Below are positions 41,128-51,288 of a stretch of 54,943 bases of DNA, piece by piece. Both the position numbers and the translations under genes were made by a program. The DNA is taken from assembly GCF_002001105.1 (NCBI RefSeq), contig NZ_MUNP01000071.1, positions 1 through 54,943 of the forward strand. The letters run 5' to 3'. The stretch is from Rhodanobacter sp. C06 (GTDB taxonomy: Bacteria; Pseudomonadota; Gammaproteobacteria; Xanthomonadales; Rhodanobacteraceae). The stretch's first letter is position 1, and every line of letters starts with the position of its first letter. Under the pieces are notes generated by a model. The model ran no database searches. It saw only the letters and a list, made by a program, of their open reading frames with translations, and was not told the origin of the DNA.

Positions 41128-41302
41128 GCATCCATGGATGGATGCCCGTTTGATCTTCGCATTCAGGGAGGAATGCAGTAACCAATGAGTGCATCCACGG
41201 ATGGATGCCCGTTTGACCTTCGCATTCAAGGACGAATGCAAAAATTACTTTGTGCGCCCACGGATGGATGCCCGTTTGATCTTCGCATTCATGGACGAAT
41301 GC
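41128..41302. repeat. Tandem array of three two-hairpin repeats (49-bp units, 63-bp period)
   Basis: Units lie at 41128-41176, 41191-41239 and 41254-41302. Each has hairpin 1 (18 bases, GCATCCA-cgga-TGGATGC in unit 2), a conserved 13-base linker CCGTTTGAyCTTC, and hairpin 2 (18 bases, GCATTC-6 bases-GAATGC). The period is exactly 63 bases. Unit 3 has a decayed left arm in hairpin 1. The array fills the smpB-ratA divergent gap. A fourth copy is at 51240-51288. Confidence 0.9.
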
Positions 41303-41320
41303 ACTAGTAAAGGGACTGCC

Positions 41321-41749
41321 GTGATCGAAATACGCCGCAGCGCGCTGGTGCGCCATTCGCCGGAGCAGATGTTCGATCTGGTCGACGGAGTGGAAGCATA
41401 CCCAAAGCGCTTTCCCTGGTGCTCGTCGGCCACCGTGATCGAGCGCGCGGACAACGTGCTGGTGGCACGGCTCGATCTGCATTTCGCCGGGTTGCGGCAC
41501 AGCTTCACCACGCGCAACACCGCCGAGCGGCCGCAACGCATCGACATCCGCCTGGTCGATGGCCCGTTCCGTTCGCTGGACGGCCTGTGGAGCTTCACCG
41601 CGCTGGGTGAGGACGGCTGCAAGGTGGCGCTGGCGCTGGATTTCGATTACGCCGGCATCGGCGGCAGCGTGCTCAAGCTGGGCTTCCAGAGCTTGGCCAA
41701 CCGCATGGTGGACGATTTCTGCCGCGCCGCGGACCAAGTGTATGGCTGA
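41321..41749 (+). CDS. ratA: RatA, START-domain protein (ribosome association toxin / coenzyme Q-binding family)
   Basis: This 142-residue protein starts at GTG 41321, with AAAGGGA upstream. The polyketide cyclase/START-like fold is shown by EIRRSALVRHSPEQMFDLVDGVE, YPKRFPWCSSATV and the C-terminal GFQSLANRMVDDFCRAA. In E. coli RatA was described as a toxin that blocks 70S assembly; the family is also related to coenzyme Q-binding COQ10 proteins. Its stop overlaps the ratB start by eight bases. The frame remains open upstream through the hairpin repeats, but translation from there is unlikely. Confidence 0.93.
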   Translation: MIEIRRSALVRHSPEQMFDLVDGVEAYPKRFPWCSSATVIERADNVLVARLDLHFAGLRHSFTTRNTAERPQRIDIRLVDGPFRSLDGLWSFTALGEDGCKVALALDFDYAGIGGSVLKLGFQSLANRMVDDFCRAADQVYG

Positions 41750-42026
41750 ACCGGCGATCGCGGTGGATGTGGTGCATGCCGGCACGCATCGCCTGTGGCG
41801 CCGTCGCGTCTCGCTGCCGGCAGGCAGTACGGCGATGCAGGCGGTCGAAGCCACCGGGTGGCTGGCGGGACTGCCGGAGGAGGTGTCGGAACCGCTACGG
41901 CTGGGCATCCATTCGCGCCGGGTCGAGGCGGACCACGTGCTCCGTGAGGGCGACCGGGTGGAAATCTACCGGCCGCTCACGCTGGACCCGATGGCCGCGC
42001 GCCGGCGCCGGGCCGGCCGGGGCTGA
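41742..42026 (+). CDS. ratB: RatB/RnfH family protein
   Basis: This 94-residue ubiquitin-like (RnfH) protein contains IAVDVVHAGTHRLWRRRVSLP, LGIHSRRVEADHVLREGDRVEIYRPL and the ending DPMAARRRRAGR, all typical of the family. Its function is not known; it is nearly always encoded with RatA. The start ATG 41742 overlaps the end of ratA by eight bases, so translation is coupled. It converges on bamE. Confidence 0.93.
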   Translation: MAEPAIAVDVVHAGTHRLWRRRVSLPAGSTAMQAVEATGWLAGLPEEVSEPLRLGIHSRRVEADHVLREGDRVEIYRPLTLDPMAARRRRAGRG

Positions 42027-42045
42027 GTCACGTGGCGACAGGAGA

Positions 42046-42513
42046 TCAGTGGCTGTCGCTGCTGCCGGAATCGCCGCCTGAATCCTTGTCGTCCTTGCCC
42101 TTGATGTCCTTGTCGCCTCCGGATTCATTGACCGGATAGTCGACGTGGTACTTCTTGCTCTCCTTGAGCAGGTTCTTGTTGTTCTCGAGGAACGGGCTGC
42201 CGTCGACGCGCGCCAGTGTATCGTTGTCGAAATACAGGCTCATCGTGCCGACCTGCATCGGGCCGCCACGGTGCGAATAAGTGGAGACGTAGTCCCAGCG
42301 GCTCTGGTCGAACGGCGTGGCCACCGACGGCGTGCCCACCAGCAGCAGTACCTGGCGCTTGGTCAAGCCGGGCTTGAGCTGATCCACCGCTTTCTGGTCG
42401 ATGGTCTTGTCGAGCAGGTTGCCTTGGCGCACGTCCGGCGTGTAGACCAGATGGCAGCCGGAAACGGCAAGCGCCAGCAGGGCGACAACCGGCAGGGTGA
42501 TCAGCTTTTGCAT
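42046..42513 (-). CDS. bamE: Outer-membrane assembly lipoprotein BamE
   Basis: This 155-residue lipoprotein of the BAM complex has a signal peptide with lipobox AVSGC (Cys20). The BamE fold is visible in LVYTPDVRQGNLLD, LKPGLTKRQVLLLVGTPSV and WDYVSTYSHRGG followed by LYFDNDTLARVDG. It has an unusually long, highly charged Asp/Ser/Lys-rich C-terminal tail (about 25 residues: GGDKDIKGKDDKDSGG), absent from E. coli BamE. It diverges from fur, as in many gammaproteobacteria. Confidence 0.95.
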   Translation of the reverse strand: MQKLITLPVVALLALAVSGCHLVYTPDVRQGNLLDKTIDQKAVDQLKPGLTKRQVLLLVGTPSVATPFDQSRWDYVSTYSHRGGPMQVGTMSLYFDNDTLARVDGSPFLENNKNLLKESKKYHVDYPVNESGGDKDIKGKDDKDSGGDSGSSDSH

Positions 42514-42545
42514 GCGTGTTGCGTCCAGATCGTGAAGGTGTCGGA

Positions 42546-42554
42546 TGATACACT
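42546..42554 (+). promoter_or_regulatory. Candidate extended -10 promoter of fur
   Basis: TGATACACT fits an extended -10 (TG-n-TACACT) 39 bases before the fur ATG, within the 80-base bamE-fur gap. No clear -35 was seen at normal spacing, which extended -10 promoters do not require. Confidence 0.35.
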
Positions 42555-42593
42555 ACCGGTTCGGCATCACCGCGCCGGTGTGAGGTAGCTGCG

Positions 42594-49151: not shown

Positions 49152-49186
49152 ACCGCGTCGTTCGGGAATTCGGCGCGCCACCGGCA

Positions 49187-49213
49187 TTGATACGCCGGGT
49201 GCGAGCCCCATCT
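49187..49213 (+). promoter_or_regulatory. Sigma-32 heat-shock promoter of dnaK
   Basis: TTGATA at 49187-49192, a 13-base spacer and CCCCATCT at 49206-49213 match the sigma-32 consensus and closely resemble the E. coli dnaK P1 elements (TTGATG, 13, CCCCATTT). The site lies 52 bases before the dnaK ATG, leaving a leader of about 45 bases. Confidence 0.7.
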
Positions 49214-49265
49214 GACAAGTCATTGTGCGGCCGTGGCGCCGCTTGAAGATTCGGGAGCTAGAGAC

Positions 49266-51185
49266 ATGGGCAAGATCATCGGCATCGACCTGGGTACCAC
49301 CAACTCCTGCGTGTCCGTGATGGACGGCAGCACCGCCAAGGTCATCGAAAACTCGGAAGGCGACCGCACCACGCCTTCCATCGTGGCCTTCAGCAAGGAT
49401 GGCGAGGTGCTGGTCGGTGCGCCCGCCAAGCGCCAGGGCGTGACCAACCCCAAGAACACCTTCTATGCGGTGAAGCGCCTGATCGGCCGCAAGTTCACCG
49501 ATGCCGAGGTGCAGAAGGACCTCCACATCGTGCCCTACGGCATCGTCGCGAACGACAATGGCGACGCCTGGGTGGCGACCGCCGACGGCAAGAAGATGGC
49601 GCCGCCGGAGATCTCGGCGAAGGTGCTGATGAAGATGAAGAAGACCGCCGAAGACTATCTCGGCGAGCCGGTCACCGAAGCCGTGATCACGGTGCCCGCG
49701 TACTTCAACGACAGCCAGCGCCAGGCGACCAAGGACGCGGGCAAGATTGCCGGCCTCGACGTCAAGCGCATCATCAACGAGCCGACCGCGGCCGCGCTGG
49801 CCTACGGCATGGACAAGAAGGGCGGCGACCGCAAGATCGCGGTGTACGACCTGGGCGGCGGCACGTTCGACGTGTCGATCATCGAGATCGCCGAGGTCGA
49901 CGGCGAGAAGCAGTTCGAGGTGCTGGCCACCAACGGCGACACTTTCCTCGGCGGCGAAGACTTCGACATGCGTGTCATCGACTACCTGGTCGATGAGTTC
50001 CAGAAGGACCAGGGCATCGATCTGCGCAAGGATCCGCTCGCCCTGCAGCGCCTGAAGGACGCCGCCGAGCGCGCCAAGATCGAGCTGTCGTCCGCGCACC
50101 AGACCGAGGTGAACCTGCCGTACGTCACGGCCGACGCCAGCGGTCCGAAGCACCTCAACATCAAGCTCACCCGCGCAAAACTTGAGGCGCTGGTGGAAGA
50201 CCTGGTCAAGCGCACCATCGAGCCTTGCCGCACCGCGCTCAACGACGCCGGCCTGCGCGTGTCCGACATCGACGAGGTGATCCTCGTGGGCGGCCAGACC
50301 CGCATGCCCAAGGTGCAGGAGTCGGTGAAGGACTTCTTCGGCAAGGAGCCGCGCAAGGACGTCAACCCGGACGAGGCCGTGGCCGTGGGCGCGGCGATCC
50401 AGGGCGGCGTGCTGGGCGGTTCGGTCAAGGACGTGCTGCTGCTCGACGTCACCCCGCTGTCGCTGGGCATCGAGACCATGGGCGGCGTGATGACCAAGCT
50501 GATCGAGAAGAACACCACGGTGCCGACCAAGGCCGCGCAGACCTTCTCCACCGCCGACGACAACCAGACCGCGGTGACCGTGCACGTGCTGCAGGGCGAG
50601 CGCGAGCGCGCCAGCGCGAACAAGTCGCTGGGCAAGTTCGACCTCAGCGGCATCGATGCCGCGCCGCGCGGCATGCCGCAGATCGAGGTCACCTTCGACA
50701 TCGATGCGAACGGCATCCTGCACGTGTCGGCCAAGGACAAGAAGACCGGCAAGGAGCAGAAGATCGAGATCAAGGCCGGCTCGGGCCTGTCCGAGGAAGA
50801 GATCAACCGGATGGTCGCCGACGCCGAGGCGAACAAGGAAGAAGACAAGAAGTTCCACGAGCTGGTCGCCACCCGCAACAAGGCCGACCAACTGGTACAC
50901 GCCACCCGTAGCGCGCTGAAGGAACACGGCGACAAGGTAGGTGCGCAGATCGGCGGCATCGAGGAAGCGCTGTCGGATCTGGAGAAGGTCAAGGACGGCG
51001 ACGACAAGGGCGCCATCGAGGCGAAGATCACCAAGCTCGAGCAGGTGGCCCAGGCGCTGTACGCCGCGGCCCAGGGCCAGGGCGGTCCGGCCGATGCCGG
51101 CGCGCAGGCCGGCCCGCACGGCTCCGCACAGCCGGACGACGTGGTGGATGCCGAGTTCACCGAGGTCAAGGACGACAAGAAGTAA
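49266..51185 (+). CDS. dnaK: Chaperone DnaK (Hsp70)
   Basis: This 639-residue chaperone has an N-terminal ATPase domain opening [51 protein letters not shown] and [15 protein letters not shown] are the Hsp70 signatures. The inter-domain linker is [18 protein letters not shown], followed by the substrate-binding domain and helical lid. The C-terminus [15 protein letters not shown] is the usual proteobacterial tail. A GGGAG ribosome site precedes ATG 49266; the GTG at 49233 would add 11 residues and is rejected. It has its own sigma-32-like promoter and is separated from dnaJ by a TMEM175-type gene. Confidence 0.99.
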
Positions 51186-51201
51186 TCGCGCCCTGGCTCA
51201 A

Positions 51202-51229
51202 AACGAGTGCCGCGAAAGCAACGCTCGTT
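51202..51229 (+). terminator. Hairpin after dnaK
   Basis: AACGAGTG 51202-51209 can pair with CGCTCGTT 51222-51229 (one G-U) around a 12-base loop, 17 bases after the dnaK stop. No T-run follows, so it is more likely an attenuating or processing hairpin than a full terminator. The two-hairpin repeat at 51240 comes next. Confidence 0.4.
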
Positions 51230-51239
51230 ATTGAAAAGT

Positions 51240-51288
51240 GCGGCCAAGGATGGCCGCCCGTTTGACTTTCGCGCTCATGGACGAGCGC
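51240..51288. repeat. Two-hairpin repeat, fourth copy
   Basis: Hairpin 1 is GCGGCCA-agga-TGGCCGC (51240-51257), then the linker CCGTTTGACTTTC, then hairpin 2 GCGCTC-atggac-GAGCGC (51271-51288). Length and linker equal those of the ratA-side copies, but four stem positions on each side have changed with matching changes opposite, so pairing is kept. Confidence 0.9.

Follow-up and report, generated by a model that had tools for sequence, protein, structure and literature searches.

A twin-hairpin repeat with GGA loops at gene ends in the Rhodanobacter family: REP-like, and possibly an element of its own kind

It has long been asked whether bacterial short palindromic repeats are selfish debris or functional components, and a repeat family of Rhodanobacter sp. 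C06 makes the question testable. The window, by which we mean the whole stretch of DNA analysed (54,943 nucleotides), contains four copies of a repeat in which a 13-base linker joins two 18-base hairpins, the first with a loop of 4 bases and the second with one of 6. Three of these copies follow one another in steps of 63 bases. This layout had been described in a sequence-only reading of the window, and our coordinates and lengths agree with it. The copies and their neighbour genes are as follows.

40560..41054, minus strand: smpB, divergent neighbour of the array; NCBIfam PRK05422 (206.4 bits) and Pfam SmpB, over the family cut-offs
41128..41176, plus strand: copy 1; hairpin 1 at 41128-41145, linker with TTGA at 41146-41158, hairpin 2 at 41159-41176; R1 match 41123-41180, 78.8 bits
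41191..41239, plus strand: copy 2, tandem array before ratA; R1 match 41186-41243, 80.8 bits
41254..41302, plus strand: copy 3, tandem array before ratA; hairpin 1 with one C/A mismatch and one G/T; R1 match 41249-41306, 73.9 bits
41321..41749, plus strand: RatA-family gene 3' of the array; Pfam PF03364, over the cut-off
49233..51185, plus strand: dnaK; NCBIfam PRK00290 (1027.3 bits), over the family cut-off
51240..51288, plus strand: copy after dnaK and before the TMEM175-like gene; R1 match 51235-51292, 83.8 bits
51311..51889, plus strand: TMEM175-like gene downstream of the dnaK copy; Pfam PF06736, 114.6 bits

The names smpB and dnaK, which the sequence-only reading had used, are borne out by these scores, whereas ratA holds at the level of the Pfam family but not of the NCBIfam RatA equivalog model, against which the protein reaches 119.9 bits (cut-off 258). 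The same reading had stated that every change in one stem arm is matched in the opposite arm; this fails in the third ratA copy, where the arm GCGCCCA faces TGGATGC and a different fold is preferred when the copy is folded in isolation. The linker word CCCGTTTGANNTTCGC occurs in the window exactly only at the four copies, and nine times if up to three mismatches are allowed (1.4 expected); genome-wide it is found 16 times, and its reverse reading not once. Orthologues of the dnaK-side copy are present in the genomes G082 and G069.

The four copies belong to a large family. At E<=1e-5 the C06 genome carries at least 105 copies, the element is present in 119 of the 147 family genomes searched, and pairing has not been lost at random among the further copies. 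They are grouped in about 80 arrays (78 counted) in both orientations, and 92 of the 105 share at most 20 nt with any called gene; two of the 13 that share more are ratA copies, whose gene start was called too early. Rfam gives no match over the gathering score in the window, and with a lax setting at 41080-41340 the only match has an E-value of 3.4. A description of the family was not found among the titles and openings of abstracts listed from one open-access library; in the consulted part of PMC3733652, Rhodanobacter, Dyella and 'Xanthomon' are unmentioned.

The consensus consists of two half-units, each TTGA-N5-hairpin with CANGGANG across the loop. The two hairpins differ from each other and are arranged head to tail, often as tandem arrays. 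The linker, once taken to be fixed, is so only in part: TTGA is its best-kept portion and is exact in the linker of 73 of the 105 copies, but the first half is often TTTT or TTC in other genera instead of CCGT. CANGGANG is present in hairpin 1 of 74 copies and in hairpin 2 of 85. Throughout the 105-copy alignment the loop GGA is nearly invariant, the preceding N is free, and the GGA loops of both hairpins face one direction; in the hairpin 2 loop this N carries 0.03 bits and both flanking positions 1.73-1.92 bits. Compensation between the arms, which fails in the third ratA copy, is evident over the 105 copies, with 70 cells changed on both sides against 14.7 in shuffles, in an alignment that was fitted to the structure and therefore leans towards it; the covariation also exceeds that of slid pairings.

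Copies at the same site in many species reveal which letters are kept by selection. With a site match defined as agreement of the flanks on at least one side, 52 of 65 arrays in the close species G082 match element-bearing sites of C06, all 52 in the same orientation, and 26 of 32 in G069, 23 of them in the same orientation; the arrays themselves grow and shrink. In orthologous copies of G000 and G082, substitutions affect 14 of 244 GGA(A) positions, 62 of 921 stem positions, 24 of 69 N positions and 56 of 288 edge positions, so that GGA differs at 5.7% and N at 35%; between G000 and G069 the corresponding counts are 7/96, 35/377, 15/26 and 40/120. The constraint on GGA is alike in antisense (4.7%) and sense copies (6.2%). 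Stem changes between close orthologues are mostly one-sided: of 50 pairs that changed in the G082 comparison, 8 did so on both sides with both states paired, and of 28 in the G069 comparison, 2. None of six candidate pairs provided a clean empty site. The one presence/absence site that was followed, L319, carries the element in 8 of the 14 loci tested, including the distant G054, and lacks it in six, C06 and G069 among these, a pattern that looks like loss. These comparisons show that the element is old and mostly vertically inherited at the compared sites, and that selection keeps the stems and the loop letters GGA regardless of the orientation to neighbour genes.

The site between atpG and atpD extends this picture across genera. 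There the element is found in 12 of 29 loci and 11 of 25 genera, and 17 loci, that of C06 included, are without it (E<=1e-4 in both cases). All 12 copies have one orientation, antisense. At this single site the arms compensate across genera, with 17 two-sided compensated cells against 3.6 in shuffles, and GGA is kept in 14 of 16 and 16 of 16 rows; further pair types number 8, against 7.6 in shuffles, which is no excess. Selection on a folded strand, which had been proposed from the four copies, is thus supported by position-specific rates in orthologues and by covariation at atpG-atpD more strongly than four copies could show.

By our own gene calls, random placement would put 26.1 of 77 gene 3' ends and 14.9 of 57 gene starts at 15 nt or less from an array, and the observed numbers are 42 and 8; arrays adjoin stop codons and avoid gene starts beyond random placement. 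A terminator-like hairpin on the same strand immediately precedes 18 of the 78 arrays. In C06, 37 of the 105 copies are antisense to both neighbours and 32 are sense. When stem slips are read on the transcript strand and orthologues are collapsed, G-U (63) exceeds A-C (39; p=0.022), and a per-set sign test gives 29 to 13 (p=0.02); the unpaired control is even, with few G-to-A events (5 and 13). The excess appears only after the split by gene orientation, being absent on the element strand over all copies (39 against 43; 73 against 76 in a second count), and that split rests on a simple gene caller, which set the ratA start too far upstream. Within C06 alone the signal is weak (15/14 sense, 11/17 antisense), and two sense loci in other species give 7 G-U and 5 A-C distinct events. 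Because the slips on the transcript strand are G-U more often than A-C, a modest signal at p of about 0.02, it is suggested that the stems are maintained at the RNA level, as hairpins in the transcript of the neighbours, in either orientation. Transcription-linked mutation could mimic a G-U excess.

The reading that we consider best, held with somewhat less than even confidence, is that of a new element of the Rhodanobacter family, REP-like but not a REP, in which hairpins stand at gene ends independently of orientation. As has been reported for REPs, a hairpin placed between cistrons or immediately after a stop codon would tune the 3' end or the decay of the transcript, or the termination of translation. 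The letters GGA and TTGA may be read by a factor, either a host protein that binds nucleic acids or the enzyme by which the element formerly spread. The equal GGA constraint in antisense copies, which show UCC in the transcript, is left unexplained by a purely RNA-hairpin function.

Like REPs (the GTAG and CGTC super-families, BIMEs and REPINs), the element is a short, mostly intergenic palindrome in about a hundred clustered copies, has a preferred tetranucleotide 5' of the hairpin and loop letters of importance, and often lies directly behind stop codons; according to PMC5082802, ribosomes stall at a REP that is no more than 15 nt away from a stop codon. The REP definition in the parts of PMC3733652 and PMC8266576 that we used requires GTAG or CGTC at the hairpin end, whereas here the conserved word is TTGA, five bases from the stem. 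In BIMEs and REPINs two REPs are inverted, whereas here two unlike hairpins run head to tail. Br-REP1/2 of Bradyrhizobium resemble the element in that repeated hairpins overlap 3'-UTRs and in that sense and antisense RNAs are discussed (PMC5082802, consulted in part); the host group is unrelated, and the likeness is one of description. Copying of single-stranded DNA hairpins by a Y1 (HUH) transposase, active or recently so, as in a REP/RAYT system, would account for about 100 tagged intergenic palindromes, and C06 does have two Y1_Tnp genes (regions L139 and L140). At certain positions of the REP loop, some group-3 TnpAREP proteins tolerate no change, and the guide tetranucleotides of IS200/IS605 may be the counterpart of the REP tag (PMC8266576, part consulted). 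However, both Y1_Tnp regions are free of copies at E<=1e-5, plasmid and phage sequences give no match at that threshold, and PF01797 (RAYT) was found neither in the same-genus genomes G069, G082, G095 and G117, which bear 37 to 106 copies, nor in G018 or G044, an absence that is not certain, as this search missed one of the two Y1_Tnp genes of C06; CGTC REPs have also been recorded without transposase association (PMC3733652, consulted in part). A direction relative to the replication fork is shared by 22 of 32 arrays in G069 but not in G082 (32 of 65); taken together, the two genomes show no clear replication-strand bias. The earlier suggestion of a mobile REP-like element copied with stem variation fits the look of the repeat and fits poorly as present-day mobility, because many sites are shared between species (one across genera), L319 resembles loss and the search for PF01797 gave no match in several of the species rich in copies; transposase-driven spread is quite improbable.

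A different reader is proposed by the loops. RsmA/CsrA proteins recognise an ANGGAN hexaloop (PMC3791407, part consulted), and the hairpin 2 loop, ANGGAY, is such a hexaloop, in which the free N of the element coincides with that of the motif. On this account two GGA loops per copy would bind a CsrA dimer in mRNA, or titrate CsrA genome-wide; the frequency of CANGGANG in both hairpins, the single CsrA gene of C06 and the ratA array, which in 13 of 15 genomes of the genus is sense and immediately 5' of the start codon, agree with it. Several GGA hairpins in succession also recall the Csr/Rsm sRNAs (CsrB, RsmX/Y/Z), but the element is scattered in both orientations and not confined to one sRNA gene, and no Rfam family fits. 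Hairpin 1 presents the motif as a 4-base loop, and one such GGA loop was reported to bind RsmN/RsmA only weakly (PMC3791407, part consulted). Since antisense copies, to which the atpG-atpD site adds its own, are as many and as constrained as sense ones, to take the element for a CsrA site is not the simplest choice, and we regard it as improbable. That independence of orientation, and the copies behind terminator-like hairpins, would suit a DNA site, where a host protein (a nucleoid, gyrase, replication or recombination factor) reads an extruded or single-stranded chromosomal hairpin and transcripts are irrelevant. Covariation of the arms led us to drop a plain reader of the double-stranded palindrome, and both the concentration of arrays at stop codons and the surplus of G-U on the transcript strand point to RNA; a DNA site is rather unlikely. 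Neutral debris, in which dead repeats appear conserved through similarity-picked matches or gene conversion, draws on the fact that copies were found by similarity, on the expansion and shrinkage of arrays and on the one-sided stem changes. Simulated decay followed by a similarity filter (sequence-only, not the covariance model itself) gave GGA 18% against N 20% at rate 0.2, and 27% against 34% at rate 0.35, and did not reproduce the observed rates, while conversion alone would not be expected to keep N four-way mixed beside a fixed GGA. This explanation is very improbable, and the element appears to be a functional component of the genome.

In a more far-reaching reading, which we hold to be less likely than not, TTGA-tagged twin hairpins would form a separate extragenic class, domesticated family-wide. 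Each copy would mark the end of a gene, the GGA loop of its folded strand being recognised, whichever the orientation, by a factor specific to it; sites such as atpG-atpD would go back to the common ancestor of at least 11 genera, with losses elsewhere. The loop motif, whose pattern is equal in both orientations, could be used to fish for the reader, and CsrA would be the first protein to confirm or rule out. A promoter role for TTGA was dropped on inspection by eye; the word stands upstream of 35 of the 78 arrays, and any NTGA upstream of 49.

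The four copies of the twin-hairpin repeat reported by the sequence-only reading (at 41128, 41191 and 41254 before ratA, and at 51240 after dnaK) are present in the window at those positions; the genome of Rhodanobacter sp. C06 has 16 occurrences of their linker word, vs 0 in the reversed control. The covariance model that had been called for was built from these 16 linker-word copies and extends the element beyond the original four: at least 144 matches were obtained in this genome at E<=1 (150 of 5170 candidates scored), and 105 copies at E<=1e-5 in the window and 69 of 70 own-genome stretches (L116 left out). 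These are organized in 78 arrays, of which 54 are single and 22 double, with one triple and one fourfold. Contig C44 (182,054 bases) seems to be self-mirroring, with element hits at mirrored places, and its stretch L115 agrees with reverse-complemented L116 in 4000 of 4000 compared letters; the mirrored contig is probably an assembly artefact.

The consensus over the 105 copies reads TTGA-N5-hairpin 1, a linker with TTGA-N5, and hairpin 2, the usual hairpins being GCGGCCA NGGA TGGCCGC and GCGATC ANGGAY GATCGC. The letters CA.GGA.G carry 1.43 to 1.92 bits each. For loops 1 and 2, respectively, the N preceding GGA has 0.25 and 0.03 bits and the letter following GGA 1.29 and 0.55 bits. Exact TTGA is found in the linker of 73 of the 105 copies and immediately upstream of 35 of the 78 arrays. 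The covariation of the stems, originally noticed between the copies in the window, holds across the 105 copies: in an alignment fitted to the structure, 70 arm cells are compensated on both sides vs 14.7 in shuffles, and 94.6% of the arm cells are paired vs 87.9%.

The search of other Rhodanobacteraceae, likewise proposed at the outset, matched the element in 119 of 147 genomes and 22 of 26 genera; copy counts there are floors, because 37 candidates were scored per genome. An order-wide draw matched 26 of 200 genomes, 24 of them from the same family and the other two with single hits, and plasmids and phages gave no match at E<=1e-5. An exact 26-base element word was matched in 31 stretches of species genomes; one came from Dyella marensis, two from an unplaced Proteobacteria MAG and the rest from Rhodanobacter.

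Within the genus, flanking matches on one side or both place 52 of 65 arrays of genome G082 and 26 of 32 G069 arrays at element-bearing sites of the C06 genome, the orientation agreeing in 52 and 23 cases; for 13 and 6 arrays, respectively, there is no own-genome partner among the retrieved stretches. Of 15 genus genomes, 13 have the ratA array at E<=0.01, each time on the strand of ratA (one stretch, L229, has an additional weak overlapping hit on the opposite strand). At the site of stretch L319 the element is found in 8 of 14 loci and absent from 6, and loss is the simpler reading, since the distant genome G054 has it and the C06 genome and G069 are without it. The survey of the atpG-atpD gap, identified by Pfam ATP-synt and ATP-synt_ab_N, covered 30 genomes, with 29 loci counted and one genome with a weak match alone left out. 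The element lies in 12 of 29 loci and 11 of 25 genera (E<=1e-4), antisense to the operon in 12 of 12; weak overlapping hits on the opposite strand (E 0.002 to 0.016) also occur, which palindromes would be expected to give. The C06 genome has no element between these genes. In the atpG-atpD alignment (rows kept at E<=1e-4, three of them, L159, L161 and L182, from loci fetched earlier), 17 arm cells are changed on both sides vs 3.6 shuffled and 97.1% are paired vs 89.0, further pair types not exceeding the shuffles (8 vs 7.6); GGA is kept in 14 of 16 and 16 of 16 rows. The element is old and, at the sites compared, mostly vertically kept rather than jumping.

Selection was examined in 51 orthologous pairs from 41 cluster rows, restricted to sites where the two genomes have the same number of copies, unequal clusters being excluded. 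Between C06 and G082, differences were found at 14/244 GGA(A), 62/921 stem, 24/69 N and 56/288 edge letters; between C06 and G069, at 7/96, 35/377, 15/26 and 40/120. Random mutation combined with a similarity filter fails to yield the gap between GGA and N. Most changed stem pairs are changed on one side (40 of 50 in G082, 21 of 28 in G069), which counts against the selection reading; 8 and 2, respectively, are changed on both sides with both states paired. With the last loop letter counted among the free ones, 9/146 GGA and 25/63 free loop letters are changed in the 21 pairs that are sense to both neighbours, and 5/106 and 16/45 in the 16 pairs that are antisense to both. As the pattern is the same, the constraint is independent of the direction of neighbouring genes. 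Selection acts on fold and loop whichever way the element points.

The element matches no Rfam family. The suggestion of a mobile REP-like element stands as far as the likeness goes, but the element is not a REP by definition, because the tag differs from GTAG/CGTC, its hairpins stand head to tail, and the REP transposase RAYT (PF01797) was not found in six genomes with at least 36 copies each (G069, G082, G095, G117, G018 and G044), in a search that missed one of the two genes of the C06 genome. Neither of these genes has an element copy nearby:

C06 contig C3, 11686-12018 (L139): Y1_Tnp (RAYT-like) gene, no element copy near
C06 contig C82, 17532-17786 (L140): Y1_Tnp (RAYT-like) gene, no element copy near

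The element is a REP-like but distinct, vertically kept twin hairpin.

Gene neighbourhoods were called by our own codon-usage caller, with no curated annotation and with the ratA start set too early. Ignoring genes that overlap a copy by >20 nt, 37 copies run antisense and 32 sense to both neighbouring genes, 22 lie between convergent and 12 between divergent genes, and 2 at contig ends. In the 67 of 78 arrays usable for a proximity test (random placement within the same gaps, 5000 trials), an array is found within 15 nt of 42 of 77 gene ends vs 26.1 expected, 42 being reached in 0 of 5000 trials, and of 8 of 57 gene starts vs 14.9 expected (p=0.003). Terminator-like hairpins lie within about 60 nt of 31 of 78 arrays vs 32 of 149 control gaps, figures that are only roughly comparable because control gaps were scanned whole. 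Measured against the direction of the replication fork, 22 of the 32 G069 arrays and 32 of the 65 G082 arrays share one orientation.

If the stems are kept as RNA, slips on the transcript strand should be G-U rather than A-C. Among 255 copies from three genomes, with the loop-closing pair 12-17 left out, G-U and A-C slips on the element strand number 34 vs 21 in sense and 18 vs 36 in antisense copies, and are even in convergent (10 vs 10) and divergent (9 vs 9) copies. With orthologues collapsed to 100 sets, the orientation split has p=0.028, the transcript strand shows 63 G-U vs 39 A-C (p=0.022), and the sets themselves divide 29 to 13 (p=0.02). The unpaired-site control is even, but small; the orientation effect is weak in the C06 genome alone, and further species at two loci give 7 vs 5 distinct events. 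Conservation of the stems as RNA on the transcript strand is thereby hinted at, not proved.

Could the copies be CsrA sites? The C06 genome encodes CsrA, and the loop of hairpin 2 is the hexaloop recognised by RsmA-type proteins (PMC3791407). About half of the co-directional copies point in the wrong direction, yet are equally kept; where copies are sense, as in the ratA array, a CsrA role is possible beside another role. The element probably acts at gene ends in transcripts, where a putative reader would recognise its GGA loop.

Several sites border chaperone, protease or ATP-synthase genes: besides dnaK and atpGD, copies lie between hslV-like and hslU-like genes, antisense to both, in two genus genomes (L151, L156), and one adjoins a clpP-like gene (L150), the hslV, hslU and clpP genes being named by eye. 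In two copies the linker contains another hairpin module, 74-75 bases long and with CCATCGCTG..GCGATGTCAAAAATCG:

L127, 5504-5577: second hairpin module, separating hairpin 1 from hairpin 2
L127, 2404-2478: second hairpin module, separating hairpin 1 from hairpin 2

The core word of this module is also found in L113 and L114. In Rhodanobacter sp. PCA2 (L218, 4383-4723 and on), about 8 near-identical units stand in tandem at steps of about 63 bases, an array that could possibly serve as a strain-typing repeat.
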